Source of the DNA: an uncultured Planctomycetaceae bacterium
GTDB lineage: Bacteria; Planctomycetota; Planctomycetia; Planctomycetales; Planctomycetaceae
Direction: 5' to 3'
Assembly: GCA_903896675.1 (NCBI GenBank)
Contig: CAITYU010000333.1
Location: forward strand, 1 to 64,000
Length of the DNA: 64,000 nucleotides
Below are positions 10,728-45,544 of the stretch, one piece after another. The notes below the pieces were generated by a model. The model searched no databases. It saw only the letters and a program-made list of their open reading frames with translations, and was not told the origin of the DNA. Within the stretch, counting starts at the first letter, position 1, and every line of letters starts with the position of its first letter. The translations under genes were made by a program, and so were the position numbers.

Positions 10728-12389
10728 ATGTCCACACCGCTGAACATCGCTGACCGACTTCGCTGCTCCGCCAGCATCGTCCCCGACCAGCCTGCCGTGA
10801 TATTTCCGGCCTGCCGAGACCACCGGGGACGCACGGCATGGACCCAGGTCTCCTTCGCACAACTCGACGCCGAAGTGGACCAGCTCACTCGCGGACTGAT
10901 CAGCCTCGGAGTCCGCCCTGGACAACGCATGGTGCTGATGGTCAGGCCGTCAATTGAATTTATTGCTCTGGTCTTTGCCGTTTTTCGTACCGGCGCAATC
11001 TGTGTACTGATCGACCCCGGAATGGGCCGGGGCAGCCTGCTTAAATGCCTCGACGAAACCGATCCGGACGGATTCATTGCCATCCCGCTGGTGCATCTGA
11101 TTCGCAGCCTGATGCCGTGGCGGTACCGCAGGGCCCGCCTGAATGTCAGCGTCGGCTCACGGAACCTGCCATGGCTGGAATCACTGGATGGCCTGCTGCA
11201 GCGCGGCAGTATGGCAGACTCAGCAGCGCTCCCGCAGACACTTGCTACCGATCCGGCAGCCATCATCTTTACCAGTGGCAGCACAGGCCCACCCAAAGGT
11301 GTTGTTTTCGAACACGGCATGTTCAATGCTCAGGTGGACCTGATCCGCAGCTTCTACGGTATCGCTCCGGGGGAAACAGACCTGCCCGGATTTCCGCTCT
11401 TCGCGTTGTTCAATCTGGCAATGCAGGTTACAACGGTAATCCCCGAAATGGACCCTGCGCGTCCGGCCGCCGTCGATCCTCTCAGAATTCTCGAGGGACT
11501 CAGCACGCAGCGCGCCACACAGGCCTACGGATCGCCAGCCATGTGGAATCGTACAGGACGCCACTGCGAGCAGTTCGGAATTCGCATCGAGCGTTTGAAC
11601 CGAGTCCTTTCGGCGGGAGCCCCCGTACCGTTGCACGTGATTCGTCGGATCACCGCGATGCTGCGTCCGGATGCCGATATCCATACCCCCTACGGAGCAA
11701 CGGAATGCCTGCCGGTAGCATCGATCGGTGGACGCGAAATCCTCGCCGAAACTGCTCCTCAATCAGCCAGCGGACGGGGGACCTGTGTTGGCCGAGTGTT
11801 TGCGGGAGTAGAGGTGCGGATTATCCGAGCCACCGATGCGGTCATCCCGAACATCTGCCAGGCTGAACAGCTGCCACCCGGTGAAATCGGTGAAATCATC
11901 GTCCGCAGTCCGGCAGCGACACGTGAATACTTCCGCCGGCCGGAAGCAACTGCTGCCGCAAAAATTTCGGATGGCGAGACTTTCTGGCACCGCATGGGAG
12001 ACGTCGGATTCCTCGACGAACAGCAGCGACTCTGGTTCTGCGGACGCCGCGCACATATTGTCCACACAGCAGCCGGACCGATGTACTCAGTCTGCTGCGA
12101 AGCAATTTTTGACCAGCACCCTCAGATCTATCGTTCGGCTCTGATTGGACTTGGCCCGGTCGGTGATGAACGCCCGCTGATTGTTGTGGAACCTGAAGGA
12201 GGTCAGTTTCCGGACACGCCGGCAGCGGCCAACCGACTGACAGCAGAACTGCTCGCAATCGCAGCCGCAAACCCGCTTACCGCCTCCATCCAACGTGTGC
12301 TTTTCCACCGGTCATTTCCGGTCGACACGCGGCACAATGTCAAAATCAACCGCGAACAGCTGCGGATCTGGGCCGCGATCCAGCCCTGA
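10728..12389 (+). CDS. OleC-like AMP-dependent acyl ligase (beta-lactone synthetase / fatty acyl-CoA ligase family)
   Basis: A 553-residue member of the ANL (acyl-AMP ligase) superfamily. The phosphate-binding loop [12 protein letters not shown] is at 181-192 and YGATE at 322-326; the C-terminal region has [17 protein letters not shown]. The string [21 protein letters not shown] closely resembles OleC of long-chain olefin biosynthesis, which uses ATP to turn a beta-hydroxy acid into a beta-lactone. No OleA, OleB or OleD partner is in the window, so a plain fatty-acid CoA ligase role is also possible. The usual final catalytic Lys may be in NVKINREQL. Start ATG 10728 has GGAA-rich sequence upstream; the frame is open further upstream but without similarity. 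Confidence 0.8.
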
Positions 12390-14186: not shown

Positions 14187-15842
14187 TCAGGGAAGACGGC
14201 CAAACGTCATGATCGCAATGTCGTCATTCTGAGACCGTCCATTGGCATGCTTCCGCACATCGGTCAGAAGATCACGCCCCAGCTGCGACGTGTCCACAAT
14301 CCCCTTCCTGACAAACTCAAGAACCTTCTCGGTCGTGTAAAGTGATCCGTCCGGTGCCATCGCCTCATCGACGCCGTCTGTCCGCAGCAGAAACAGATCT
14401 CCCGGCTCAATATCCCGCTCCACAACGTCGTACTCGTAGTCGTCCATGATCCCGATCGGAATCCCGATCTGCCCACCGGCAAACTCCTCAACGGTCCCGT
14501 CAGCCCTGCGAACCAGCGGCGGATAATGACCGGCATTCACCATCGAAATTCGATTCGACTGCAGGTCCACGACAGCCAGAGTGTAGGTCACGAAACGCCC
14601 GGCCACCATGTTGTGACACATGTGACGATTGATGCGGCTGATTGCGACCGAGACGTCGTCGGTAAAACTCATGGTGTTCTGCACCACGCTGGAAATACGA
14701 GACATGATCAGTGCACCCGGTACACCCTTGCCGGCAACGTCGCCGAACGACACACAGATCCTGTGCTCACCAATCATGAAACAGTCGTAATAGTCGCCCC
14801 CGACAGCCTGAGCCGCATCATACGAAGCGTAAAAATACCAGCCCGGTACCTCCGGCAGAACCTCAGGCAGCAGCGCCTTCTGCACAGAGCGAGCAATCTT
14901 CATTTCCTCATCCTGCTTCTGCTTTTCGAGATGACTCTTGAGCAGTCGCACGTTTTCATACGCGTTTGCCGCCTGACTGGCCACTGCCAGCAGCAGTTCC
15001 AGATCCTCATCCGTGAAACGCTTCATCGGATTCTGAGTATCCAGGTTGATGACACCGAACGGACGTCCCTGCAGGTCCAGCATCGGCACACACATCATCG
15101 AATGCAGCTTCAGACTGGAAATGGACTCACTGGCACTGAATCGAGCATCGTTGGCAGCGTCCGCAGAAAGAATTCCAATCTTCTCATCCAGCACCTTCAT
15201 CAGAATGGTCCTGCTCAGCCGCACGGACTCGTCGTCACTCTCCGCCCGCCGTTTCTGAGCTACCGGCACCAGTCGCTCAGACCCGGCCAGACGAATCTGA
15301 ATTGTGCCACGATCAGCCTGAGGAAAAATATCGAACAGCACATCCAGAATTCTGGGTGCGATTTCTGAAAGCTCAACCTGACCGGCAAGGGACTGGTTGA
15401 TCTTCAGAATGCCACGAAGCTTTTCCTCCGGACGCACTTCAAAGACACCAAATCCACGTGCCGCCGAACTGCCCATGATGGTGGCAGAACTGTTTTCCGA
15501 CAGCTCAAACCCGTCCGATGTGACAGCCATCGGCTCAGGCTCAGCCGCCTCCGACTCAAAACGCAGACGCACCGGGCCCAGTTTGATGCGGTCATTGTGC
15601 TGCAGAGGTACCGCACTGCGTTCCCTGAGTTCCAGCAGTTTGCCGTTCAGGGCCGTCCTGTTGGCCGCTCCCAGACACTCCACAAAATACTGCCCGTTCT
15701 GCTCAAGAATCTGCGCATGCCGACGAGACACCTGCGCATTGTCCACCTGGATGTCGCAGTCAGGACTGCGCCCAAGCACGGCCGGAAAGCGAGTCAGTTC
15801 GAACGAAGTCTCCTCGTTCAGCAGCACGACAATCCTGGGCAT
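14187..15842 (-). CDS. FHA-GAF-SpoIIE (PP2C-type) serine phosphatase
   Basis: A 551-residue signalling protein. Residues 1-98 form an FHA phosphothreonine-binding domain (GRSPDCDIQV, SRRHAQI). Residues about 150-300 are a GAF sensor domain (MMCVPMLDLQGRPFGVINLD). After a short coiled linker the SpoIIE/RsbU phosphatase domain runs from about 335 to the end, with metal-binding Asp residues in GGDYYD (D350) and FGDVAGKGVPG (D368). It should dephosphorylate a Ser/Thr-phosphorylated partner, typically an anti-sigma-factor antagonist, under control of a phosphoprotein and a small ligand. Start at 15842 is chosen for MPRIVVLLNE with an AAGGTG box upstream; a longer frame reaches 15884. It follows the uronate isomerase-like gene by 47 bases on the same strand. 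Confidence 0.9.
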   Translation of the reverse strand: MPRIVVLLNEETSFELTRFPAVLGRSPDCDIQVDNAQVSRRHAQILEQNGQYFVECLGAANRTALNGKLLELRERSAVPLQHNDRIKLGPVRLRFESEAAEPEPMAVTSDGFELSENSSATIMGSSAARGFGVFEVRPEEKLRGILKINQSLAGQVELSEIAPRILDVLFDIFPQADRGTIQIRLAGSERLVPVAQKRRAESDDESVRLSRTILMKVLDEKIGILSADAANDARFSASESISSLKLHSMMCVPMLDLQGRPFGVINLDTQNPMKRFTDEDLELLLAVASQAANAYENVRLLKSHLEKQKQDEEMKIARSVQKALLPEVLPEVPGWYFYASYDAAQAVGGDYYDCFMIGEHRICVSFGDVAGKGVPGALIMSRISSVVQNTMSFTDDVSVAISRINRHMCHNMVAGRFVTYTLAVVDLQSNRISMVNAGHYPPLVRRADGTVEEFAGGQIGIPIGIMDDYEYDVVERDIEPGDLFLLRTDGVDEAMAPDGSLYTTEKVLEFVRKGIVDTSQLGRDLLTDVRKHANGRSQNDDIAIMTFGRLP

Positions 15843-15889
15843 AAACAGACACCTTCGCCAGAGACCATGAATTCGCCTCAGCACACGCC

Positions 15890-25626: not shown

Positions 25627-26538
25627 ATGTCTTCGGTCAAATCCGGCGGAAGTTCGCGATTGCGAATGCCGCAGATCAAGCTGACCAGGTATGAGGTCGC
25701 TATTTCTGTGCTGCAGACCTCCGGATTAATTGCGATCCTGACATTCCTCGTCATGCTGATGATCTGGTTGTCCAATCTGCTGCCCGCTCCGATTTCCAAA
25801 AAAGTCGAACTGATGCCGGCGGGGGATGGTGGCTGGGAGGACGGTAGTCCTGACGCCACGCCAAACGTGGAATCTCCTGAGGACGCTGTGCCGGACCCGT
25901 CGATGGCCAACGAGGAAACTGACGTTACTCAACTGGAAGAGGTGCTCGAGCAGGTTGTGGAGATCGCCGAGAACGCGGCCGTCATCGAAGCTCCCAATGA
26001 AAATCGTGACCGTAACACATCAGGCATTCCCGGCAGTGCCGATGGCACGGGTGGCCGACCGTTGGGCAGTGGTGGTCCTGGACGTGGCGGTGCGAAGCGT
26101 GAGCAGGGCTGGATTGTGGAGTTTGCCGACAAGGGTGATCTCGACAGCTACGCCGCTCAGCTGGATTTCTTCGGCATCGAACTGGGTTTGCTGGAGAAAG
26201 AGGATTCACGACTGACATATCTCAGTAATGTCAGTCGTCCGGTACCCACCAAACGGGAAGTGCGCACCGGAGATGCGGAAAAACGTCTGTTTTTGAAATG
26301 GCAGGATGGCAGCCAGGATCGGATTAAGGCGGACATGGAGTTATTTCAGCGCGCCAGCGTGGACGGCAGCAACGGAATAATCATGCATTTTTACCCTCAG
26401 GCGACAGAGCAGATGCTGGCGCAGCTCGAGGTTGCCTACGGCAATCAGCAGCCGACAGCCATCCGTCGTACATATTTTCGTGTCCGCAAGGCGGGCAGTG
26501 GCTACGAGTTTGTCGTGGATCGTCAGGTTCTGAAATAG
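25627..26538 (+). CDS. Single-pass membrane protein of unknown function, TonB-like topology
   Basis: A 303-residue protein with no recognised family. Residues 1-22 are basic and cytoplasmic, 29-52 form one membrane span (TSGLIAILTFLVMLMIWLSNLL), 60-135 are acidic with a Pro/Glu/Val linker, 136-160 are Gly-rich (GTGGRPLGSGGPGRGG), and about 165-303 form a globular domain (EQGWIVEFADKGDLDSYAAQ, IMHFYPQATEQMLAQLEVAY). This layout resembles TonB or TolA, whose partner is ExbB/ExbD, and ExbB follows 19 bases later. There is no detectable TonB sequence motif, so the comparison is topological. AGAGGA at 25614-25619 supports the ATG. It is the first gene of the operon. Confidence 0.75.
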   Translation: MSSVKSGGSSRLRMPQIKLTRYEVAISVLQTSGLIAILTFLVMLMIWLSNLLPAPISKKVELMPAGDGGWEDGSPDATPNVESPEDAVPDPSMANEETDVTQLEEVLEQVVEIAENAAVIEAPNENRDRNTSGIPGSADGTGGRPLGSGGPGRGGAKREQGWIVEFADKGDLDSYAAQLDFFGIELGLLEKEDSRLTYLSNVSRPVPTKREVRTGDAEKRLFLKWQDGSQDRIKADMELFQRASVDGSNGIIMHFYPQATEQMLAQLEVAYGNQQPTAIRRTYFRVRKAGSGYEFVVDRQVLK

Positions 26539-26557
26539 TCGCGAAGTGGATTCAGCT

Positions 26558-27286
26558 ATGACAAGTGTTTCTGAATTGATCAGTTTCATCGGGATCCTCG
26601 CTCAGGATGCTGCGGCCGCTCCGGCGGCTGGACCATCCACATTCATGAAGATCATCGAAAACTCGATCTGGGCCGGTATTGCCGCCTGTGCGGCGGGTGG
26701 CATGTACGCGGGACTGCTGCTGGTGCGACGAGTCAAGCAGAAGCAATTCCCGGGTGCAGCATCCGAACAGGCATTTCTGACCGAACTCACGGAATGCCTC
26801 GAACGCCGTGATTTTGATGCAGCGCTCCAGGTGTGCGATAATCCGGCACTCTGGAACAAAGCGCTTGCACAACTTGCCGCCATCGCGATTCAGGCCAGGG
26901 ACCTGCCGATGAAGAAGATCCGCCAGATGGTTGGCGAACGCTTTGAACGCGACATCCTTGGCAACCTCGATCGCACCAACGCATGGGTGGGCACCAGCAT
27001 AAAAACTGCCCCGCAGCTGGGACTGCTGGGAACGGTTCTGGGGATGATTAATGCCTTTGCCAAGATTGCTGGCGCTGCAGCCACGGGTGTCGACCCCAAG
27101 GAACTTTCCGCAGACATCAGCTTTGCACTCTGGACAACCGCAGCAGGCATGGCTATTTCGATTCCGCTCATTGTCATTCAGGGATCTGCCTCCAACGGCA
27201 TCAAGAAACTGCAGGAGAACATCGACGAAGGAACAGGCACGTTTCTGGACAGCCTTGCTGAAGCCAAGGCCAGGGCCGGCGGCTGA
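26558..27286 (+). CDS. MotA/TolQ/ExbB-type proton channel subunit
   Basis: A 242-residue inner-membrane protein that forms the pentameric stator of proton-driven motors. Three membrane spans are visible: NSIWAGIAACAAGGMYAGLLLV, the TAPQLGLLGTVLGMINAF helix (the classic ExbB/TolQ second span), and ALWTTAAGMAISIPLIVI. Between spans 1 and 2 lies a cytoplasmic loop of roughly 100 residues. ATG 26558 is chosen over GTG 26546. The ExbD gene follows 65 bases later and a second ExbD domain is in the kinase gene after it. Confidence 0.92.
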   Translation: MTSVSELISFIGILAQDAAAAPAAGPSTFMKIIENSIWAGIAACAAGGMYAGLLLVRRVKQKQFPGAASEQAFLTELTECLERRDFDAALQVCDNPALWNKALAQLAAIAIQARDLPMKKIRQMVGERFERDILGNLDRTNAWVGTSIKTAPQLGLLGTVLGMINAFAKIAGAAATGVDPKELSADISFALWTTAAGMAISIPLIVIQGSASNGIKKLQENIDEGTGTFLDSLAEAKARAGG

Positions 27287-27884: not shown

Positions 27885-29396
27885 ATGAGTGATCTGACGG
27901 ACAAAAAACTTGGTGAATTCCACCTGCTGCGACCGCTGGGCAGCGGCGGCATGGCCGAAGTCTATCTGGCCGAGCAGACATCGCTGCAGCGCTACGTCGC
28001 CGTGAAGGTAATGAAACCGGCTCTGATGGCACATTCCGGTCAGGACATGCTGGCCAGGTTCAAGCAGGAAGCCATGATGGCAGCCGGCCTGAATCATCCG
28101 AACATCGTGCAGGTGTACACGATCGGGGAAGAGCAGGGCCTGCACTACATTGCTCAGGAGTTCGTGCAGGGCAGCGACCTGGCAACACTGATGCGGGAAC
28201 GCGGCAAACTGGATCTGGCATCCGTTCTCCATGTCATGCGACAGGTCGCTGCGGCTCTCAAGGCTTCCGGTCGGGCCGGGATCGTGCATCGCGACATCAA
28301 ACCGGAGAATATCCTCGTAACAAAAAAGGGCGAGGTGAAGGTGGCCGACTTCGGCCTCGCACAACTCGGCGAAAACACCGAAGGCAGAGAGGGCGTGACG
28401 ATGGGCACGCCACTGTACATGAGCCCCGAGCAGGTCAGCGGCAGGGAACTTGACCCCCGCTCAGATATTTACTCATTCGGAGTCACCTGCTACCAACTGT
28501 TGTGCGGAGAACCCCCGTTCCGTGGCACGACGGCCGTGCAGATTGCCATGCAGCACCTGAAAAACCCACCGCCACCGCTGCATGAACGCAACCCGCAACT
28601 CCCCAAGACCCTGTGTCGCCTCGTGCATCGCATGATGGCCAAGCGTCGCGGTCTGCGATATCAGTCGGCCGATGAAGTTTCAGAAGATATCAAAACCCTC
28701 ATCGCCGCCCAGAAGCAGGGGCGATCGCTGGACCTCGTTCGGTTACCCCGCCTCGAGGAACTCGAGCGGCTGGCGGAGCAGGAGCGGCAGCAGCACCAGC
28801 GAAATCAGCATCAGCAATCCGCAGATGGGCTGGACGACGGCGGAGACCTGCCGTTCGAAACATCTGCCGGTTCACAGACGGCTCCCGAGCCTGTCAGGGC
28901 CAAACCGGAACGACCAAAACCGGTGGCTCCGGTACCCGTCGCAGCAGATGATGACGACGATCCGCCGCCCCGCAGGCCACGCACGGAAGACAGTGCCGCA
29001 ATTGACCTCACGCCAGCCGTGGACGTGACCTTTCAGCTGCTGATTTTCTTCATGGTAACGGCATCCTTCAGTATGCAGAAAGCCTTTGACGTACCGCCGG
29101 CCAAAAATACCGATGGCGTTTCTGCGGCCGTTGTGGTGCCTCAGGAGTCCGAAACGTCGGCCGTCAAAGTGCAGGTGGATGCGGACAATGCCATGTACGT
29201 CGAGGAAACCAAAAAAGCCATCACGTTCAGAGAACTGCTGGAGCTGCTGAAACAGGAAAAGGGCTCAAGTTCGGATGTGACAGATGTGGAACTGGAACTG
29301 CATCCGGACTCCACACACGAGGCTCGGGTTATCGTCATTGACGCAGCAACTCAGGCAGGTTTTACGCGAGTCAGAAACAGAATTGTTGAGTGGTAG
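27885..29396 (+). CDS. Serine/threonine protein kinase fused to a C-terminal ExbD domain
   Basis: A 503-residue two-part protein. Residues 11-275 are a complete Hanks-type kinase: P-loop LGSGGMAEV (18-26), catalytic Lys41, Glu62, HRDIKPEN with Asp137, DFG at 155-157, and SPE at 180-182. All key residues are present, so it should be active. A charged Gln/Arg coiled region and Pro-rich linker run about 285-368. Residues 372-503 are an ExbD domain: [20 protein letters not shown] with the proton-relay Asp380, then a periplasmic domain with the usual [25 protein letters not shown]. In planctomycetes kinases usually end in a single span plus sensor domains; here the span belongs to ExbD. Topology fits: kinase inside, ExbD outside. 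No frameshift is visible at the junction. Confidence 0.93.
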
Positions 29397-29486: not shown

Positions 29487-32400
29487 GTGGCAGACAAATC
29501 TTCTGACAAATCTGAATTCGACCCGGAAGCAGACCGGCAGCAACTGGCTGAAAAAGCGAAACAGCAGCTGCAGCGTGGTCGACTTTCCGCGTTTTCCGAT
29601 CGCCTCACGGGTGGGCCGGTCAGAAATGAAGATCAGAAAATCTCCCGCTCCCCGGCAGTGCTTCTGCTGACGGGGACCACGATTGTCTGCTTCCTGCTGG
29701 CCGGTATCTTCTGGTTCATCAATCAGAGGAACGTCGAAGAACGCCTGCTGAAGGACGCCCAAACATTCCTTGAACAGCAGAAATACCTCGACGCCGAAGC
29801 GCGATTCGTGCAGTTCATCGCACAATACCCGAAGACGGAATCGACGGCTGCTGCCCGCATCGGCCTCCATCGCACTCGAGTCGAAAAGTTTATCCTCACT
29901 GATACCCCGGACGTCATCAAGGGCATGGCCGAGTTCAGAGAGCTGGAGTCTGAGTGTCGTGAACTGCCCGGATTCAGTGAGCTGCAGGATACGCTTCGGC
30001 GTTACACTGATCGACTGGCCTACGCCGGCGCTGTTGTCGCTGAAGTCACGCAGTCCGAAGAAGCTCTTGTCGTCAGCCGGGAAGCCCTCGACCTGCTGCA
30101 GCGGTATTCTCCGGATGGCGTACCAGCATCACGGCTCCAGCGCCTGACGGAACGACAGCGAGTGGCTGAAGGAGCGATTGCTCGTAAACTGACCTTTCAG
30201 GCCACATCCGAAAAAATCAGCAGCCTGCTGCAGGCTGGCGACACTGCCGGCGCCATCAGGACTCGCGAAGAGCTGATTCAGCGATTTCCGACTCTGGCGG
30301 AAGACAAGGACGTCCTGAAGATGCTGACGGACATCCTGAACCGTGAGAAGGAACTGGTGGTTCGCACGGATCTCGCACGGGATGCGATTCCCGCTGATCC
30401 GGCCCTCGAACAACTCCCCGCACTGACGCCGGCGCTTCGCACGCAGGCCGCTTCGGATCTGACATCACAGAACCGTTTTGTGGTGACCTGCGGCCGAGAC
30501 TCCTGCTGGTCGGTGGATGCTGACACAGGAGATCCGCGCTGGCGACGAGTCATCGGTACAGGCGCACCGTTTGCTCCCCTGCCTGTGGACGGCTCACGAC
30601 GCGGCGTACTGGTCTACAGCACGCAGTTCGAACAACTGCAGATGCTGGCAGAAGATACCGGAGAGGTGCTGTGGCGACAGTCCATCGAAGCCCGCCCATC
30701 AGCTCCGCCAGTCATCGCGGGCGGTACCGTATTCATCACAACGGACAACAATGAACTCTGGCAGGTCGCTGCAGATTCCGGTCGAGCCCTTGCAAAGCTG
30801 AAATTCCCGCAGGCCATCACCGGCCCTCCGGCTTTCTCCGGCGATGGTCAGGTGCTGATCATCCCCGGCAACCAGATCATGGTTTACACCATCAGCCTGA
30901 ACCCTTTTGGCTGTCTTGCCGCATCCCGTATTCCGCACGGACCGGGCAGCGTTCGCGTGCCGATTGCGTCGGCCGGAAATTACTTTCTGATGTGTGACAA
31001 TCAGACGACAGCAAAGGCCCGTATTCAGACACTGCGGCTGGAACCATCCGGACAGGTAACCGTGATTGCAGAAAATCCGGTGGATGGGCAGGTCCAGGAT
31101 CCCATGCTGCTGCGTGGCTATGAACTTTTCGTGCCCTCGACGCCGCAGCGAGTCACAGCATTCCGGGTCAGCGATGAACCCGGACAGCCTCCACTGTCTC
31201 CGGTCGGGGCAAATCAACTGGAGGACGGCCTCCAGACTCGCATGTTTCTGATGGCCGGTCCAGGCGGTCAGGTCTGGCTGGGTGGTCGGGATCTGAGAAA
31301 ATTCCGTACGCTGGCCAACGCAGTCGAACTGGAATCAGGACTAACGGCGGAGGGCGTGCACACGCAGCCGATTCGCCTGCTTGAGGATTCGGCATTCCTG
31401 ACCACGCGAACTTCCGTCTCCGACTCGACTTTCTTCACGCGTGCTGATCGTGAACAGATGCAGGGGATCTGGCGGACCGCGATTGGTTCCCGCATTGTGG
31501 CCACGGCGCCATCAGCGGGTGGTGAGTCGCTGCTGGCCATTACCGATTATGGCGAATCCTACCGTGTTCCGTTTGCCGAACTGAAGCGGCAGAGCTTCCT
31601 GCTGGAATCGGTCAGCCGCTTTCGCCTGCCGGACAAGCTGGCATCGACGATCAACGGATTCGTGCTCAACGATGGCCGCCCGGCCGCGTGGTCCGGACTC
31701 CCCGAACCTCTGATGTGGACCTTTACAACTACGGGGCAGTTGGAGCAGCGGTGGACATTGCCGGGCGTTCCGGAAGTGCCGCCCGTCGCGATCAACGCGG
31801 GAGCTGTTTATGCGGTCCCCGGCAAACTGCACCTCACCGGCCTTTCCGAAGGTCGCACCGCCGAGGACTACCTGTCTGCCCAGACGCAGGATCGGCAGCA
31901 GCCATGGAAAGCACTTGTGGCCATTTCCGGTACGCAGGTGCTGGCAGTGACGGCCGGTAATGAATTTGTTCGAGTCGAATATCGGGACACACCGCGACCG
32001 CAACTGGCGGAACTGAGCGTCGTGAAATTCCCGCACACAATTGAAGTGGCTCCCTCGGCCGCCAATGGATACCTCTTCGCTGCAACGACCGATGGACGAC
32101 TGCTGATGATGCAGGCATCCAGCCTTGAAATTCTCGCTGAAGCACAACTCGGAGGTGTCCCCAGCGCATCACCAAAGGTCGCCGGACAGGTGGTCATTGT
32201 GGAGGTCGCCGGACAGGCCGCTAAGGTCTTTCGAATTCAGGGCGGACTGGCGCCGGCATCCGAACTGCAACTGGCTGGCTTCGGAATTGCCGGAAACCCA
32301 CTGGCGGTGGATGACGGAGTACTGGTCGCTCGCACGGATGGCATGCTCACAAAACTTGATACAGCCGGGGTTCCAACCGGAGCTTCGATGTCCGTAGGCC

Positions 32401-32498
32401 AGGCGGTGCAGTCCGGTCTGGTCCGCTTCGGCAATCAGATCGTGATCACCGGCATGGACGGCAGCTTTTACGCAATTGATCCGGCACTCAGGCGATAA
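29487..32498 (+). CDS. Membrane-anchored TPR-like plus PQQ-type beta-propeller protein
   Basis: A 1003-residue protein. The first 55 residues are cytoplasmic, followed by one membrane span (SPAVLLLTGTTIVCFLLAGIFWF, about 54-76). Residues about 80-300 are helical and TPR-like (AQTFLEQQKYLDAEARFVQF). From about 330 to the end come PQQ/WD-like blade repeats (CGRDSCWSVDADTGDPRWR, MLAEDTGEVLWRQSIEA, ITTDNNELWQVAADSGRALA), a BamB-like propeller used for protein binding rather than PQQ catalysis. It should face the periplasm. Start is GTG 29487. The gene sits 90 bases after the kinase-ExbD fusion, in the same run of + strand genes. Confidence 0.82.
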   Translation: MADKSSDKSEFDPEADRQQLAEKAKQQLQRGRLSAFSDRLTGGPVRNEDQKISRSPAVLLLTGTTIVCFLLAGIFWFINQRNVEERLLKDAQTFLEQQKYLDAEARFVQFIAQYPKTESTAAARIGLHRTRVEKFILTDTPDVIKGMAEFRELESECRELPGFSELQDTLRRYTDRLAYAGAVVAEVTQSEEALVVSREALDLLQRYSPDGVPASRLQRLTERQRVAEGAIARKLTFQATSEKISSLLQAGDTAGAIRTREELIQRFPTLAEDKDVLKMLTDILNREKELVVRTDLARDAIPADPALEQLPALTPALRTQAASDLTSQNRFVVTCGRDSCWSVDADTGDPRWRRVIGTGAPFAPLPVDGSRRGVLVYSTQFEQLQMLAEDTGEVLWRQSIEARPSAPPVIAGGTVFITTDNNELWQVAADSGRALAKLKFPQAITGPPAFSGDGQVLIIPGNQIMVYTISLNPFGCLAASRIPHGPGSVRVPIASAGNYFLMCDNQTTAKARIQTLRLEPSGQVTVIAENPVDGQVQDPMLLRGYELFVPSTPQRVTAFRVSDEPGQPPLSPVGANQLEDGLQTRMFLMAGPGGQVWLGGRDLRKFRTLANAVELESGLTAEGVHTQPIRLLEDSAFLTTRTSVSDSTFFTRADREQMQGIWRTAIGSRIVATAPSAGGESLLAITDYGESYRVPFAELKRQSFLLESVSRFRLPDKLASTINGFVLNDGRPAAWSGLPEPLMWTFTTTGQLEQRWTLPGVPEVPPVAINAGAVYAVPGKLHLTGLSEGRTAEDYLSAQTQDRQQPWKALVAISGTQVLAVTAGNEFVRVEYRDTPRPQLAELSVVKFPHTIEVAPSAANGYLFAATTDGRLLMMQASSLEILAEAQLGGVPSASPKVAGQVVIVEVAGQAAKVFRIQGGLAPASELQLAGFGIAGNPLAVDDGVLVARTDGMLTKLDTAGVPTGASMSVGQAVQSGLVRFGNQIVITGMDGSFYAIDPALRR

Positions 32499-32513
32499 CG
32501 CGGGTTTGTGTTC

Positions 32514-35084
32514 ATGAAACTCAGATTCCTTCAGTTCCCCGAAATTCGTGGCGCAGCAACACATTGGCTTAAAACCATGGTGGTTGTCCTGCTGATGCTG
32601 TGCAGCGCTGCGGTCAGTGGCGACGAATCAGTCGGACGAACCGAACTGCCGAAGCTTTCCGAAATGCCGTTGCCCACAGCCGAGGCACTGTTGCGCGCGG
32701 ATCTTGACGACAGAGAGTTTGACTGGGTTGTGCTGAAGGCCGGCACACCGGAAGACCGGCGAGTTGTGGTCGTCAATCCTCTCGATTCAAGACCCGACAT
32801 CCTTGGAAAACAGGATGCAGAATACAAAAAACTGGAGGCCTCAAGGCCACAGAATCAAAAGGAACGCGAGGCTCGGACAAAGCGTCTGAAAAGCCTGAAG
32901 AAACTGATGTTCACGCTGCCCGGCGATCTGACTGAGTACGCCGTTCCTGTCGAACAGGTCGATCAGATCCTGTACTTCGAGGATCTGATGCTGCTGGTGG
33001 TCGACCAGTTGCTTGAGAAAGCGGATTACCGCACATCCTATGAATTGCTGCTGCGAGTCGAGACAGAACTGCCAGGCTGGGAAAAATCAGTTCCTCGATT
33101 CGAGCGACTGCTGCTGAGCGAAGCGGCAACGCGGGCTGCCGCCGGAGAAATCTATGCGGCGCTGGCTCTGCTTGATCAGGTCTTTCAGCGAAATCCGCAA
33201 AGCACTGAACTGCCCACCCGATTGGGTGAACTGGTCCGGCCGATGATCAGTGATGCAGTGGGCAAAGAGGATTTTCGCAAGGCCCGCTACCTGATCGATC
33301 GAGTCCGCCGGCTGTTTCCGCAGCATGAAGTGGCCGTTGCGGCACAGACCGAACTGCAGACACTCAGCCAGACCCTGCTGGACAAAGCCACGGCCAGCAG
33401 CCAGCAGAAACAGCATGCCGAAGCCGCTGAACTGGCTCGCCGTGCCGAAGCGGTCTGGCCCACAGCAGGAAATGGTCGTGCCACATTCACTCAGCTGTTT
33501 GCCAGACACCAGGTCCTGCGAGTCGGCATCAACGACCCGCAGGGCCCCTTCATTCACCCGGCTCCACTGGAGTCGGACGAGCGACTGCAGGAGCTGGGGC
33601 AGGTCAGTCTGTTTGAGCCTTCTTCAGCCGACGAACTGACGTATTTTCGCTCTGGCTTTTTCGAGGTCTGGGATCCCACGGATCTTGGTCGGGAAGTCGT
33701 GTTCACACTGCGTGAAACAAAACCGTCGTGGCAGACACAGCCACTGCTGACAGCCAACCAGGTCGCCGAATCGATTGCTCAGCGAATCGACATCGCTCAC
33801 CCGCTTTACAGTTCGCGGCTGGCCTCCTTCGTTTCAGAGATCTCCGTCAGATCTCCGTCGCAACTGAGACTTCGATTTTCCCGAGTCCCGCTGAGCATCG
33901 AATCTCTGCTGAGATTTCCGGCAACCCGCAGTGTCCCACCAGGTGGTGACGAGGCTGCTGCTGCATCGGCCAGCGGAACAACCGCTGTCATCGCCACGCG
34001 TTTTCAGCAAAAGACTGCGGCCGGAAATGCAACATCCTGGCTCAGGGGTGTTCCTGAGCCCGATGGGCTGGACGCCGGCAAATATCATGTCGCCGAAATT
34101 CAGGAACAGCGATTTGATGACCGAAATCGCATGATTCAGGCCTTCAACCGCGGCGACATCGATTACATCCCGAAGCTGCTTCCGTGGGAGGTGGACGCCT
34201 TCCTGGCATCAGATTTTCAGGTGAAGAAATACGCACTACCCATGACGCACGTGCTGATCTTCAACCCCCGTTCGGAACGTATCACAAACGCTCAGACACG
34301 CCGTGCACTGTCCTTCGCAATCAATCGCGAAGGCATCCTGCGTTCCACAATCCTGCGGGATGAATCAATGAAGCATGGCCGACCGACAAGTGCCGCATGG
34401 CACCTGCGCAGCTATGCCACGGAACCTCGTGAGCCGGCACCACGATTCAACCTGCGACTGGCTTACGCCCTCCGGTTCGCCGCCGAACAGCAGTTGAGAA
34501 TCGCCGAGCTGATGAAACTGACGGAGGCTGCAAAGGAAAAGGCGCGGGTTGACAAAATCAATTTTGACCCCGAACAGTTCCGCAGGAACACCAAAGTCGA
34601 CTACGTCAAACTCCCGCGCCTGCGATTTGTGGTCGAACCTGGTGAAGTGCCCAAAGCTGCAGCCGAACGCCTGCTGAGCTACTGGACCCGAATCGGTTTC
34701 GAAATCGACGTGATTCAGGGCGATCAGCCCGGAATGCCACTCTCAGACTCTGACTGGGACTTCTGCTATCGACAGGTACGGATGGAAGAACCACTGCTGG
34801 AACTCTGGCCGGTCCTCGCAAATGACACGACTTTTGATATGTCACGACTGGGACTGTATCCCGACTGGATGCGCCAGGAGCTGGTGGGCCTGGACTATGC
34901 CTCCAGTTTCCTCGATGCCCAGGAAAAACTGTTCACGATTCATCGACATATCGCTGCTCAGGCCTTCCTGATCCCGCTCTGGGAAGTTGATGAGTACGCA
35001 GTGCTGCGAAAGAACGTTTCCGGGACACCGGCTCAACTGATGTCGGTCTACCACAACGCAGAGCGATGGATGATCAAGCCATGA
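32514..35084 (+). CDS. Exported TPR-like domain fused to family 5 solute-binding protein
   Basis: An 856-residue protein with a signal peptide (LKTMVVVLLMLCSAAVSGDES). Residues about 40-325 are helical with TPR-like pairs (AAGEIYAALALLDQVFQRNP, AAELARRAEAVWPTAGNG). From about 335 it matches dipeptide/nickel-type SBP_bac_5 proteins: LLTANQVAESIAQRI, RITNAQTRRALSFAINREGIL and SDSDWDFCYRQVRMEEPLLELWP. Such proteins normally deliver peptides to an ABC importer, but no permease or ATPase gene is in this window. ATG 32514 is chosen; a GTG two codons earlier is possible. The stop overlaps the next start (ATGA), so translation is coupled. Confidence 0.85.
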   Translation: MKLRFLQFPEIRGAATHWLKTMVVVLLMLCSAAVSGDESVGRTELPKLSEMPLPTAEALLRADLDDREFDWVVLKAGTPEDRRVVVVNPLDSRPDILGKQDAEYKKLEASRPQNQKEREARTKRLKSLKKLMFTLPGDLTEYAVPVEQVDQILYFEDLMLLVVDQLLEKADYRTSYELLLRVETELPGWEKSVPRFERLLLSEAATRAAAGEIYAALALLDQVFQRNPQSTELPTRLGELVRPMISDAVGKEDFRKARYLIDRVRRLFPQHEVAVAAQTELQTLSQTLLDKATASSQQKQHAEAAELARRAEAVWPTAGNGRATFTQLFARHQVLRVGINDPQGPFIHPAPLESDERLQELGQVSLFEPSSADELTYFRSGFFEVWDPTDLGREVVFTLRETKPSWQTQPLLTANQVAESIAQRIDIAHPLYSSRLASFVSEISVRSPSQLRLRFSRVPLSIESLLRFPATRSVPPGGDEAAAASASGTTAVIATRFQQKTAAGNATSWLRGVPEPDGLDAGKYHVAEIQEQRFDDRNRMIQAFNRGDIDYIPKLLPWEVDAFLASDFQVKKYALPMTHVLIFNPRSERITNAQTRRALSFAINREGILRSTILRDESMKHGRPTSAAWHLRSYATEPREPAPRFNLRLAYALRFAAEQQLRIAELMKLTEAAKEKARVDKINFDPEQFRRNTKVDYVKLPRLRFVVEPGEVPKAAAERLLSYWTRIGFEIDVIQGDQPGMPLSDSDWDFCYRQVRMEEPLLELWPVLANDTTFDMSRLGLYPDWMRQELVGLDYASSFLDAQEKLFTIHRHIAAQAFLIPLWEVDEYAVLRKNVSGTPAQLMSVYHNAERWMIKP

Positions 35085-36742
35085 GAACAGCTGTAATCTG
35101 CCTGATGCTGTCAAGTGTGCTTCCCGAAGCACTGCTGTTTGCCCAGCAGACTTCGCCGAATGCAACAGCCGGTTCCGTCGCCCAGGCGGATGCACCCGCA
35201 CCGGCACCCACCGCTGCTCCGACACCCCCCCCGGTTGACCGGACACCGTTTCAGCAGCGCCCCTATCGTGTCACCGTGGAAGTTGGTTTCAGTGGCCCAG
35301 ACGCCGTCGATCCTCAACTGCGGACCGAAATTGTGCGGCAGATTCGCGACGGGTTTGATCGCCTGTACGGGGCAATGTGGATCACCAGTGTGCTTGAATC
35401 CTCGTGGTTCGTGCCCGGCAGCAGAGAATCCCTTGAACGCCTCGATGCGCCGCAACTGGAGAGCCGGTATGTCGAAAGCGAAACCGAAAAAGCCCTGCTG
35501 ATCGCAGTGGAATGCGACCGTGATGGGTTTACCGTCAGTTGTCGTGAACACGATGTTCGCATTCAGGAGCTGACACCCGTGATTACACGTACCGTCTTCA
35601 CTGCAGACGCTGCGGCACATGCTGCCTGCGAGCTGGGGCGCGACAGCTTTAGGCCCATCCTTCTGTACACATCACAGACACTGGACAAAACCGAACTGGA
35701 ATTCGTGGTGCAGGCTGGCTTGATCACCCCACCGGATCCCAGTGCTGCCCAACTGCGGGAGGGCGACGTGCTCCGCACATTCCTGCGACAGATGGACCGA
35801 AAAAATCCCGGCAAGGTAAAACTCCTGCAGAGACTTGATCTCTGTTATGTTCGCATCACCGGATTCAACGATGTGCTGGGCAGTGGCGGACTGTCAGCAG
35901 ACGAACAGCCGGTGCGGGTTGAAGGCGTGGATACCCAGCCATCACAGGGCTGGCAGGACACCAGCCGAGCGCGTGGAGTCCTGCTTTCACACGGCCTCGT
36001 ACCATTCGGAACCAAAGGGCGCAACCTGCAGCAGATCGGCGTACGCCAACGCCCCATTGCAGCCTCCAGTCGCGTGCGAATGGTGCTGCAGAACCGACCG
36101 GATCGACCGCTGATCTGCCTGCGAGTGGACCAGGTCGCAAAGCTCCGACAGACTGATGTCAGTGCCCAACCACCGGTTCGGGTACTGACGGATCGCAGGG
36201 GCGAACTCACCCTGCAGACCGATCCCAAAAATCCCACGTTCTGGCTCTACGCATACAGCGGCAGCACGCTGCTTGCTCGAGTTCCATATGCTCCGGGACT
36301 CACCCCCGTTGATACCGTGAAACTTCCTGATGACTCCATTCGCCTCGGCGTTGAGGGGGATCTGTATCTGCTGCGAGACGAACTTGTGGATATGGTCGCC
36401 GAAAAAGCCGTCCATATGAGTCTTGCGAAAAAGGCGTCTGAAGCGAAAAACGGCGAGGGTTTTCTGGAGGCTGTTGCAGCCATGAATACCCTGCCCGGTG
36501 ACGAAGCCTTCGGCCTGAAGCTGAATGAAATCCGGGCTCCGGCCATTGATCGCGCCGACAAAGCCAAAAATTCCGCTGCAAAACGTCGCATTGAATCTCT
36601 GATTGGCAGAATGTCAGACTCCCTCGTGAAATACTTTGCTCCGGAGAAACGGGTGGCTGAAGCCGACGAACTGCTGAAACTGCGTCGAGCCGCCGGATTG
36701 CCGGATGAAGCCCCTGCCGGAAGTTCGGGCAGCGGCCGCTGA
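35081..36742 (+). CDS. Exported protein of unknown function, last gene of the ExbBD-kinase operon
   Basis: A 553-residue protein with a signal peptide (MRTAVICLMLSSVLPEALLFAQQ) followed by an Ala/Pro/Thr-rich linker (about 28-55). The rest is a mixed alpha/beta protein without a recognised domain; it contains repeated beta-rich stretches (YRVTVEVGFSGPDAV, RPLICLRVDQVAKLRQ, RRGELTLQTDPKNPTFWLYA). An ending Ala/Lys-rich helix (SAAKRRIESLIGRM) precedes a Gly/Ser tail. ATG 35081 overlaps the stop of the solute-binding protein by 4 bases, so they are co-translated and their products may interact in the periplasm. Confidence 0.75.
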   Translation: MRTAVICLMLSSVLPEALLFAQQTSPNATAGSVAQADAPAPAPTAAPTPPPVDRTPFQQRPYRVTVEVGFSGPDAVDPQLRTEIVRQIRDGFDRLYGAMWITSVLESSWFVPGSRESLERLDAPQLESRYVESETEKALLIAVECDRDGFTVSCREHDVRIQELTPVITRTVFTADAAAHAACELGRDSFRPILLYTSQTLDKTELEFVVQAGLITPPDPSAAQLREGDVLRTFLRQMDRKNPGKVKLLQRLDLCYVRITGFNDVLGSGGLSADEQPVRVEGVDTQPSQGWQDTSRARGVLLSHGLVPFGTKGRNLQQIGVRQRPIAASSRVRMVLQNRPDRPLICLRVDQVAKLRQTDVSAQPPVRVLTDRRGELTLQTDPKNPTFWLYAYSGSTLLARVPYAPGLTPVDTVKLPDDSIRLGVEGDLYLLRDELVDMVAEKAVHMSLAKKASEAKNGEGFLEAVAAMNTLPGDEAFGLKLNEIRAPAIDRADKAKNSAAKRRIESLIGRMSDSLVKYFAPEKRVAEADELLKLRRAAGLPDEAPAGSSGSGR

Positions 36743-42424: not shown

Positions 42425-42729
42425 GTCTCCGGCACAACCTCTGCCAGCGCGCTCGGTCTTTCTGCATCAACCCGCGACCACTGGTCGCGGGTTTTTTCGT
42501 AACTGTTGCTGCAGCCAGCAATTCCCGTTTCCAGCCTTCGAAAAGTTTCATCGATTCGGCAAATCGCAGCCAGTGCCGGGCGTGGTCTGGTTGATCTGAC
42601 GTCCATGGAACCTAGGATGATGCAGCAACGGCAGAGTCGCTCACAGGGATTCTCAGGGGCTCTGCCTGTACTTTCCCATCCGGAATCGCCCCGGTGGACT
42701 CGTATTCATTTTCTCAGACGCAACCGACT
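42425..42729. other. Intergenic region between bL28-like gene and mrp
   Basis: A 305-base gap holding the terminator at 42471-42497. Nothing else was recognised apart from ordinary sequence. Confidence 0.5.
42471..42497 (+). terminator. Rho-independent terminator after bL28-like gene
   Basis: CCCGCGACC (42471-42479) pairs with GGTCGCGGG (42483-42491) around a 3-base loop, followed by TTTTTTC. Confidence 0.92.
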
Positions 42730-43794
42730 ATGCCGACCGCCGAGCAACTGCAACTTCTTGTTTCAAATGTTGTTGAACCACTCACCCAGCGATCACTCGG
42801 TGAACTGCGGATGGTTCGTGACACCTTCATCAACGGCAATGACGCTCGCGTGCGACTCGAACTGCCGACTCCGGCATGGCCCAACCCCAAAGGCCTCGAA
42901 GAACTCGTGCGTCAGCGAATTCGCTTCGCGGCTCCTGACCTCGATGTCCGCATCGAAGTGCACTCAACCGTCCGCGGTAAGGATACCGGCGGTCGCATCG
43001 GGCTGAATGTGCACAATGTCATTGCAGTCGGCAGTGGCAAGGGTGGAGTGGGCAAAAGCACAGTCGCCGCGGCGATCGCCTGCGGACTGCACTCCTTCGG
43101 TTGTCGCGTGGGCCTGATGGATGCTGATGTCTACGGTCCCAGCATCCCGCACATGATGCACGCCGAGGGTCGGCCGGCGGCCAGCGAAGTCACCGACAGC
43201 GAAGGGAACCGCATGATGCGGATGGAACCGATTGATGCCGGAGGCGTCAAGCTGATGTCCATGGGATTCTTTATCGATCAGGGCCAGTCCGTCGTCTGGC
43301 GCGGACCGATGCTGCACAAAGCGCTCACGCAGTTCCTGAAGGACACTGACTGGGGCGAACTTGACTATCTCATCATCGACCTGCCTCCGGGTACCGGAGA
43401 CGTTGCTCTGACACTCGCTCAGCAGGTCGGGCTGGCCGGGGCTGTTGTCGTCTGTACTCCGCAGCAGGTTGCTCTGCTGGACGCCATCAAAGCCGTTGAT
43501 ATGTATCAAAAGGTCAGCGTGCCAATCCTTGGGTTCATCGAAAACATGACCGGTGAGATTTTTGGCCGTGGCGGTGTGCAGAAGGTTGCCGCGGAAATGA
43601 AAATCCCGTTCCTCGGTGAAATCCCACTCAAAGCCTGTATCCGGGAATACGCCGACCGCGGACAACTGATGCAGATGCTGCAGGAAGACAACCCGGCTCG
43701 AGACGACCTGCGAGCGGTCTGCCAGAATGTGGCAGTTCAGATTTTCCGGGAACTGATCCGATCGCCTGCCGGCCCGGTCCTCGAAATCCTCTGA
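42730..43794 (+). CDS. mrp: Mrp/ApbC-type iron-sulfur cluster carrier ATPase
   Basis: A 354-residue P-loop ATPase that carries and inserts Fe-S clusters. Residues 1-80 form a MIP18/DUF59 domain, and 95-350 the ParA/Mrp domain with deviant Walker A GSGKGGVGKST at 101-111. The switch LIIDLPPGTGDVALT and VVCTPQQVALLDA are typical. The usual C-terminal CxxC was not seen in FIENMTGEIFGRGG, where many Mrp proteins have Met-Ser-x-F-x-C-P-x-C; this one appears to lack it. ATG 42730 is chosen over an upstream frame start at 42694. The SufE-SufS fusion follows 40 bases later. Confidence 0.92.
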   Translation: MPTAEQLQLLVSNVVEPLTQRSLGELRMVRDTFINGNDARVRLELPTPAWPNPKGLEELVRQRIRFAAPDLDVRIEVHSTVRGKDTGGRIGLNVHNVIAVGSGKGGVGKSTVAAAIACGLHSFGCRVGLMDADVYGPSIPHMMHAEGRPAASEVTDSEGNRMMRMEPIDAGGVKLMSMGFFIDQGQSVVWRGPMLHKALTQFLKDTDWGELDYLIIDLPPGTGDVALTLAQQVGLAGAVVVCTPQQVALLDAIKAVDMYQKVSVPILGFIENMTGEIFGRGGVQKVAAEMKIPFLGEIPLKACIREYADRGQLMQMLQEDNPARDDLRAVCQNVAVQIFRELIRSPAGPVLEIL

Positions 43795-43834: not shown

Positions 43835-45544
43835 ATGGGGCTGCCACTCGCGGAGATCTTCGAAGAGTTCTCCGACCTGGACCGCGAGGACCAGTCGAAA
43901 TACCTGCTGGAGCTCGGCGACGATCTGCCGCTGTTCCCCCCGGCTCTGCGCACTGAAGCAAACCGTGTCTATGGATGTCAGAGTCAGGTGTGGCTATCGG
44001 CTGACGTCAGCGGTCACGGAGACAATGCGGTCATCCGAATTCTGGCGGACAGCGACTCCAATATCGTTCGGGGGCTGATAGCAATCCTGCAGTCCGCCTA
44101 TGACGGAATGACCGCCTCTGAAATACTCAGCTATGATATTCAGGCCGTGTTTCGGCAGCTGAATCTGCAGCAGCATATTTCACCGCAGCGTCGAAACGGA
44201 CTGCGCGGGATGGTGGAACGCATCCAGCTCCTCGCCCGGAAACACGCCGTCAGTTTCGAGCTGTCTGCAGAAGAATCAGCCAGTGTTGCAGGCGCGGTGC
44301 TGCCCCTGTGTCCGGCCCCGCGATTTGATGTCCTGCAGATCCGCAGGCAGTTCCCGGTGCTCAACAGACCCCTCGGAGATGGACGGTTTCCTGTTTATCT
44401 GGACAGCGGAGCCTCCTCACAAAAGCCGGCCTGTGTCATCGAAAAGGAACGCGAGGTTGAGGAACAGTACTACGCCAACGCGCATCGGGGCACTTACCAG
44501 TTCGGGGTGCGAATTGATGAGGAGTTCGAGTCAGCTCGTGAACTGACAGCAAACTTCCTCGGAGCCCGATCTGCGGACGAAATCGTATTCACCGCCGGAA
44601 CCACGGCCGGCTTGAATCTGATCGCTTTCGGCTGGGCACTGCCGCGCCTGCGTCCCGGTGATGAAATCCTCACAACCGTGATGGAGCATCACGCAAACTT
44701 CGTCCCATGGCAGCAGGTGGCGATTCGCACGGGAGCCCGGCTGAAACTCATCCCACTGACATCGGACGGCCGGCTGGACGCATCCGCATTCGACTCCGTC
44801 TTCACTGAAAAAGTCCGGCTTGTGGCGGTCACCGCCATGTCCAACATGCTGGGAACCATCAACCCCATTCGGGAAATTGCCAGAAGGTGCCGTCAGATCA
44901 ACGCCTGCCTCGTTGTTGACGGCGCCCAGAGTGTCCCGCATCTCCCTGCAAATGTTGCGGCTGATGAGGTCGACTTCCTTGTCTTCAGCGGACACAAAAT
45001 CTACGGCCCCACAGGAGTGGGCGTCGTATACGGTCGCCAGTCAAGGCTGGAGGAGATGGAACCGGTGATGTTCGGAGGTCATATGATTTCCGAGGTCACA
45101 ACTGAACGCTCAGTCTGGTCACGACCGCCGGCGAAATTTGAGGCCGGTACGATGCCCATCGTGCAGGTGATCGGCCTCGGCGCAGCCATTCGCTGGCTGC
45201 AGCAACTGGGGCTGGCCGCCGTGCATCAGCACGAAGAGCAATTGACTCGTCTGTTGTTTGATGGTCTGCGTGAAATCCCCGGACTGCGAATCTTCGGTCC
45301 AGCCCCCGAGCATCGCGGGGCCATCGTCAGCTTCCGGATCGACGGCGTTCACCCGGAGGATCTGGCCGCGTTGCTCGACAGCCACGGCGTGTTCACGCGA
45401 CATGGACATCACTGCACCATGCCGCTGCATGCTCACCTTGGTATTGCCGGATCCACTCGCGTCAGTTTCGGAGTCTACAACACTGCTGACGACGTGCAGG
45501 CGTTCCTGAAAGCCCTGAACCAGGCTCGTCAGCAACTGCAGTGA
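43835..45544 (+). CDS. SufE-SufS fusion (sulfur acceptor plus cysteine desulfurase)
   Basis: A 569-residue protein joining two partners of the SUF pathway. Residues 1-140 are SufE: VYGCQSQVWL with the sulfur-accepting Cys48. A short linker leads to SufS from about 165 on: YLDSGASSQKP (190s), MEHHANFVPW (283-292), FSGHKIYGPTG with PLP-binding Lys388, and RHGHHCTMPLH with the desulfurase Cys527. All active residues are intact. SufS produces a persulfide that SufE passes to the scaffold, so fusion would channel sulfur within one chain. It follows mrp by 40 bases, giving a compact Fe-S assembly pair. No sufBCD is in the window. Confidence 0.92.
   Translation: MGLPLAEIFEEFSDLDREDQSKYLLELGDDLPLFPPALRTEANRVYGCQSQVWLSADVSGHGDNAVIRILADSDSNIVRGLIAILQSAYDGMTASEILSYDIQAVFRQLNLQQHISPQRRNGLRGMVERIQLLARKHAVSFELSAEESASVAGAVLPLCPAPRFDVLQIRRQFPVLNRPLGDGRFPVYLDSGASSQKPACVIEKEREVEEQYYANAHRGTYQFGVRIDEEFESARELTANFLGARSADEIVFTAGTTAGLNLIAFGWALPRLRPGDEILTTVMEHHANFVPWQQVAIRTGARLKLIPLTSDGRLDASAFDSVFTEKVRLVAVTAMSNMLGTINPIREIARRCRQINACLVVDGAQSVPHLPANVAADEVDFLVFSGHKIYGPTGVGVVYGRQSRLEEMEPVMFGGHMISEVTTERSVWSRPPAKFEAGTMPIVQVIGLGAAIRWLQQLGLAAVHQHEEQLTRLLFDGLREIPGLRIFGPAPEHRGAIVSFRIDGVHPEDLAALLDSHGVFTRHGHHCTMPLHAHLGIAGSTRVSFGVYNTADDVQAFLKALNQARQQLQ

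Follow-up and report, generated by a model that had tools for sequence, protein, structure and literature searches.

An ExbD-type subunit of a proton-driven envelope motor carries a Ser/Thr kinase in the same polypeptide in an uncultured planctomycete, and the same one-frame fusion recurs in 32 species of the Planctomycetaceae, always in the same gene order. We analysed a window of 64,000 nt on contig C333 of the source genome (G000, a 5.9 Mb draft). The original prediction described one uninterrupted 503-codon gene at 27885-29396 (+), combining a complete kinase with Lys41, Asp137 and a DFG at 155-157 with a complete ExbD domain containing a single span and a proton-relay Asp380, and each of these elements was found where it had been placed. 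The gene translates without a stop, and both halves matched their Pfam families far over the cut-offs. The kinase half matched Pkinase (PF00069) with 175.3 bits (cut-off 31.7; E 2.1e-51) over profile positions 1-253 of 263, and the other half matched ExbD (PF02472) with 67.8 bits (cut-off 25.4; E 1.3e-18) over positions 3-121 of 128. Among solved structures, the kinase matched StkP, PknA and PknB best (177-190 bits to the PDB sequences). The NCBIfam model for PASTA kinases, NF033483, scored 342.7 bits, below its cut-off of 450, and Pfam found no PASTA domain. Besides the residues named above, the protein has E62, N142, T172 and T175.

The ExbD part could be aligned with solved ExbD along its entire length. 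Asp380 (codon 29022-29024) lies in the TPxxDV motif and aligns with the conserved Asp of the solved ExbD chains 6tyi and 7ajq. In the AlphaFold2 model of the full-length fusion, a transmembrane helix at about residues 376-400 carries Asp380 and precedes the periplasmic domain (425-500), which was modelled with pLDDT values of 93-98 across residues 431-500; a further helix spans residues 290-313, and the region of about 314-375 is disordered. The kinase half was poorly modelled, being covered by only two sequences, and Foldseek matches of this half thus add little to the sequence evidence. Homology supports the proposed topology with the kinase inside and ExbD outside. Because ATP is found inside the cell, the kinase should be there too, and what is known of the two protein families argues strongly for a cytoplasmic kinase half, an Asp380 helix in the ExbB pore and a periplasmic ExbD fold.

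Table 1. Fusion gene with its parts, and the remaining operon genes, in window coordinates.
Feature	Position	Strand	Evidence
303-aa single-span protein, first operon gene	25627..26538	+	no Pfam match; hydropathy; AlphaFold2; conserved position
ExbB/TolQ-type pentameric channel subunit	26546..27286	+	PF01618 E 9.1e-19; alignment to 7ajq/6ye4
ExbD1, ordinary, 151 aa, own Asp (ITPMIDV)	27352..27807	+	PF02472 E 9.9e-15
Ser/Thr kinase–ExbD2 fusion gene	27885..29396	+	503 aa, one stop-free frame (translation)
Kinase domain, aa 12-260, PknB/PknA/StkP-like	27918..28664	+	PF00069; PDB sequence match; residue table
Linker, aa 281-372	28725..29000	+	model pLDDT mostly <50; composition; Ka/Ks
ExbD domain, aa 368-496	28986..29372	+	PF02472; AlphaFold2; alignment to solved ExbD
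1003-aa single-span TPR + beta-propeller (BamB/PQQ-like) protein	29487..32498	+	PF13360 E 3e-13; TM 57-75
858-aa exported protein: N-terminal region, then family-5 extracellular solute-binding domain	32508..35084	+	PF00496 E 4.7e-13; hydrophobic N-terminus
558-aa exported protein, no assigned fold, last conserved operon gene	35066..36742	+	no Pfam match; hydrophobic N-terminus; conserved order

The suggestion that the fusion might recur among planctomycetes was borne out in six genus-level groups. Fifteen genomes of the source genus, the source included, have the one-frame fusion (cut by a contig end in two of these; in two further genomes, G015 and G016, contig ends interrupt the gene itself), and the other 17 cases belong to five further groups, g6 (1), g15 (1), g48 (3), g61 (8) and g66 (4). 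The genome of one carrier, G081, consists of one contig of 8,920,478 bp. Two frame breaks were observed, both probably sequence errors of draft genomes. In the close relative G007 (L050:7480-7700), the fusion is split into two frames within the linker, and the ExbD part has no upstream start codon, which makes a sequence error the probable cause; in G031 (L062, near 11100-11250), an indel disrupts the frame in the P-loop region. K41, E62, D137, N142, D155-G157, T175 and E182 are invariant in all 30 fused kinases compared, T172 is present in 29 of them, and the proton-carrying Asp of ExbD is kept in 29 of the 29 other fused frames checked. Ka/Ks, calculated from pairs without synonymous saturation, was 0.02-0.06 in the kinase half and 0.00-0.07 in the ExbD half; the linker gave values of 0.14-0.53. 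Both halves of the fusion are under strong purifying selection. A partial phylum-wide sample of 139 genomes contained no other kinase–ExbD fusion. Five long ExbD frames (G256, G277, G307, G199 and G297) were considered as candidates and rejected, as their extra length is an open stretch ahead of the true start and gave no kinase match. In a plasmid collection, the fusion query matched only kinases, and no place covered 80% of the query.

The fusion gene takes the ExbD2 position of an operon encoding, in order, a single-span protein, ExbB, ExbD1, ExbD2, a TPR/propeller protein, an SBP_bac_5 protein and an exported protein. This order is conserved across the Planctomycetaceae and, with weaker matches, in other families of the class; the motor operon is widespread in planctomycetes and apparently undescribed. 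The first five gaps between the genes of the source operon measure 7, 65, 77, 90 and 9 bases, and the last two genes overlap. ExbB keeps the motifs GLLGT (with T163) and ALWTTAAG, which coincide with the pore Thr residues in alignments to solved ExbB. For the 303-aa protein, hydropathy and AlphaFold2 predict a transmembrane helix at about residues 21-51, an acidic, Gly-rich periplasmic linker and an alpha/beta C-terminal domain (160-303). This outline of membrane helix, disordered linker and folded end leads us to guess that the protein might be a force transducer. The His of TonB and TolA (SHLS motif) is absent from its helix 21-51 and from the aligned helix of 12 homologues, and a search for its fold gave no PDB match under E 0.1 with Foldseek and weak Z values with VIA-align. 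In some fusion genomes the operon begins with two tandem copies of this protein (second copies at L049:3186-4145, L184:851-1846 and L186:2662-3618), and Roseiconus nitratireducens (L125) has three consecutive ExbD genes, against two in the corresponding operon.

Comparison of ExbD2 among these operons revealed that the kinase is one of several N-terminal modules. In the kinase-free operons of the Planctomycetaceae, the N-terminus of ExbD2 is a zinc ribbon of the form CxxC...CxxC (weak Pfam Zn_ribbon matches); ExbD2 of other families has a domain there that weakly matches GYF_2 (E 0.008-0.014, under the cut-off). All ExbD2 types have in common an acidic stretch directly before the membrane helix, so the module swap occurred upstream of it. 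ExbD2 is thus a slot for exchangeable cytoplasmic modules: a zinc ribbon, a weakly matched GYF_2-like domain or, in the fusion, a kinase. One ExbD2 of the family, in G071 (L203:174-7151), exceeds 2,200 residues: an N-terminal zinc ribbon is separated from a normal ExbD end by a repetitive, probably disordered linker of ~2,000 residues (repeats around PSIFDETFSPSAEAAAKAAE...EYSMDGVVALPEADGSFFPP).

A second cytoplasmic module was found on the propeller protein, which in most kinase-free operons has an FHA domain N-terminal to its span (PF00498, 26.2-46.2 bits against 20.7; four homologues). Pfam gave no PF00498 match in the propeller protein of the source. We counted 31 operons with the kinase and without FHA, 28 with the zinc ribbon and FHA, and five with the zinc ribbon and without FHA. 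The distribution is suggestive of mutual exclusion between kinase and FHA. We rejected it as statistical evidence, since the tree of the operon core shows a single gain of the kinase and five changes of FHA, leaving one evolutionary event as the single independent contrast. In another family (G049, L091:8855-12265), the propeller protein begins with a helical module (LTKYQAKKLL) with no Pfam match, which we take to resemble the N-terminal part of Ser/Thr kinases in planctomycetes.

A likely source of the fused kinase is present in the same genomes. A stand-alone kinase close to the fused one (52-63% identity over the domain) occurs in 77 of 81 sampled genomes of the family, one in each, and the fusion carriers hold both kinases. 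The stand-alone kinase of the source genome (G000:C101:5489-7012) has a single span and is 52% identical to the fused one over the kinase domain. The two share an N-terminal motif. In place of ExbD2, the stand-alone protein has a span of its own and a helical region in the periplasm, and its gene sits outside the motor operon. In the kinase tree, the 28 fused rows form a clade (support 96) that joins the stand-alone clade, apart from the other kinases of the genome, which served as the outgroup. The kinase of G031 can be placed with equal fit in either the fused clade (AU p 0.67) or the stand-alone one (AU p 0.60), and the operon tree places G031 without resolution beside the fused clade, adjoining a zinc-ribbon genome. 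The simplest reading of these sequences is that the stand-alone membrane kinase was duplicated and that one copy was fused to ExbD2, which would have taken the place of its own span and periplasmic domain, while the kinase would have displaced the zinc ribbon. The original prediction had contrasted the fusion with planctomycete kinases in which the span is followed by sensor domains. The closest stand-alone kinase is just such a protein and is the apparent source of the fused one. Kinase genes also lie near the operons of other lineages (L054, L055, L067, L086, L088, L091 and L096); by score they are of a different type and, with ~45 kinases per genome, their positions may be due to chance. 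In L086, L091 and L096 (G040, G049 and G057, of one other family), a kinase gene of 469-475 aa is convergent to the operon end and adjoins a pseudouridine synthase gene.

The combined protein shares features with several known systems and departs from each. Like the ExbBD/TolQR motors (PF01618 + PF02472), the system has the pore Thr in ExbB and the single span, the Asp of TPxxDV and the periplasmic domain in ExbD. Unlike in those motors, the short cytoplasmic tail of ExbD is replaced by a 260-residue kinase with a long linker, and the operon has two unlike ExbDs and no recognisable TonB or TolA. With membrane kinases of the PknB/StkP type, the fusion shares a cytoplasmic kinase, a flexible juxtamembrane linker and a single span; instead of PASTA domains, its extracellular part is ExbD. 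A 2025 force-transducer survey described PVC-group operons with a TPR gene, a tolQ-like gene, two unlike tolR-like genes and a vWA transducer, and described no kinase or kinase–ExbD-type fusion in them (PMC12204202). Both operon types combine a motor gene with two unlike ExbD/TolR genes and a partner without assigned function. In contrast to the surveyed operons, the one reported here has no vWA gene and no membrane-helix His in its first gene, and includes the propeller and SBP_bac_5 proteins. In its main text, a 2024 study of Planctomycetota Ser/Thr kinases names WD40, TPR, sulfatase-modifying and DUF1080 as accessory domains and does not mention ExbD among them (PMC11032199); the kinases treated there resemble the fusion in being single-span proteins with a cytoplasmic catalytic domain and a periplasmic accessory domain. 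The main text of transposon-essentiality papers on Planctopirus and Verrucomicrobium does not mention the operon genes. The statement that no protein of this layout had been described agrees with our searches of open-access full texts, which gave no description of a kinase–ExbD fusion; subscription papers, supplements and domain-architecture databases lie outside the scope of these searches.

How could a kinase operate on a motor subunit? The original prediction offered two possibilities: phosphorylation could be governed by proton flow or rotation, or the motor could be switched by the kinase. Between kinase and membrane, the linker consists of the predicted helix 290-313 and a disordered, Pro/Asp-rich stretch up to the membrane, and among the fused frames the distance from the end of the kinase match to the membrane motif is 105-179 residues. 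In solved motors, five ExbB/TolQ subunits surround two ExbD/TolR subunits, and the cytoplasmic parts of TolQ reach ~60 Å into the cytoplasm (PMC12215075). A linker of at least 105 residues is sufficient to clear them. Being disordered, fast-evolving and variable in length, and with a counterpart of ~2,000 residues in G071, the linker favours a tether over a transmitter of torque. We therefore tentatively prefer, at a little under an even chance, the reading of the fusion as a receptor-type kinase with ExbD2 as its outer, sensing half, tethered and acting by proximity, in which signals would travel mostly inward. Beneath the motor, the kinase would be suspended on its long, flexible tether. The periplasmic parts, namely the ExbD folds, the propeller and the solute-binding-like protein, might engage a target and thereby pair or cluster the motors bearing ExbD2, so that kinase domains would meet and trans-phosphorylate their activation loops at T172/T175, as in PknB-type kinases. 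The activated kinase could then phosphorylate targets at the motor. Pairing within one motor would be impossible if ExbD2 pairs with ExbD1, as it might, leaving one kinase per motor. In sister operons, the same task may be carried out in trans by a separate kinase together with the FHA domain of the propeller protein as a reader; the fused kinase would perform it in cis. The window also contains, ~10 kb upstream of the operon, a gene for an FHA + GAF + SpoIIE-type phosphatase (14187-15884, minus strand; PF00498 64 bits, PF07228 148 bits), which is a possible partner of the fused kinase.

The direction of this signal is inferred from the receptor-like ancestry of the kinase, and a flow from inside to outside is a rival reading. 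The tethered kinase would then phosphorylate the motor and gate or assemble it on cytoplasmic cues. Its targets could be ExbB (in the cytoplasmic helices), ExbD1 (in the tail), the propeller protein (in the cytoplasmic tail) or the linker of the fusion itself. A flexible tether suits such local substrates, and the other modules of the slot, the zinc ribbon and the GYF_2-like domain, look like cytoplasmic interaction domains that fit a cytoplasmic input. We nevertheless regard this direction as somewhat less likely, as the kinase apparently descends from a membrane kinase of receptor-like build, periplasmic part included, which favours the outside-in flow. The freedom of the linker in length and sequence, together with the ~2,000 residues of its sister, is also what one would expect if no tight coupling were needed and ExbD2 just positioned the kinase where motors gather, its activity and substrates being independent of the motor state. 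A pure anchor would need neither the proton Asp nor the operon position, yet the ExbD half keeps its Asp, is as constrained as the kinase, and is encoded within the operon in all intact cases; this makes a mere anchor an unlikely explanation. Direct mechanical coupling, in which rotation of ExbD2 or proton flow would physically switch the kinase on or off, draws on the covalent joining of the kinase to a subunit whose family is believed to turn or move within the pore, ExbBD, TolQR and MotAB being treated as one 5:2 motor family (PMC12215075). A disordered, poorly conserved linker of this length would not carry torque, and we consider such coupling very improbable. Finally, the frame breaks in G007 and G031 might point to an artefact, with two genes joined through faulty sequencing or assembly, or to a gene in decay. 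The recurrence in one frame in 32 species and a Ka/Ks near zero in both halves refute this.

On the most far-reaching reading, the fusion could represent a class of envelope-spanning signalling machines of planctomycetes in which the motor subunit is itself the signalling enzyme. Its kinase would be switched by the assembly or load of an ExbBD-type motor, the propeller and solute-binding-like arms would sense the envelope, and the read-outs (kinase, zinc ribbon, GYF-like domain and FHA) would vary by lineage. We offer this as a conjecture that falls short of an even chance. The usual view of ExbBD, TolQR and MotAB proton motors is that they generate force; if one of their subunits doubles as a kinase, protein phosphorylation would be tied to the state of the envelope in terms of energy or load. 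The pattern of module swapping, as read from the sequences, suggests that cytoplasmic regulation may be a general feature of the planctomycete motor operon. The original prediction did not cover the operon context, the swapping of modules or the source of the kinase, and these are the more informative part. The fusion offers a clean genetic handle, because residues of the kinase (K41 or D137) and of proton transfer (D380) can be changed separately in one protein, and operon versions with the kinase or with the zinc ribbon and FHA can be compared in related organisms.

Elsewhere in the window, a second combined frame (43835-45544, +) encodes SufE together with a SufS-type cysteine desulfurase (Aminotran_5) in 569 aa, and it adjoins the gene for an Mrp/ApbC-type ATPase (42694-43794).
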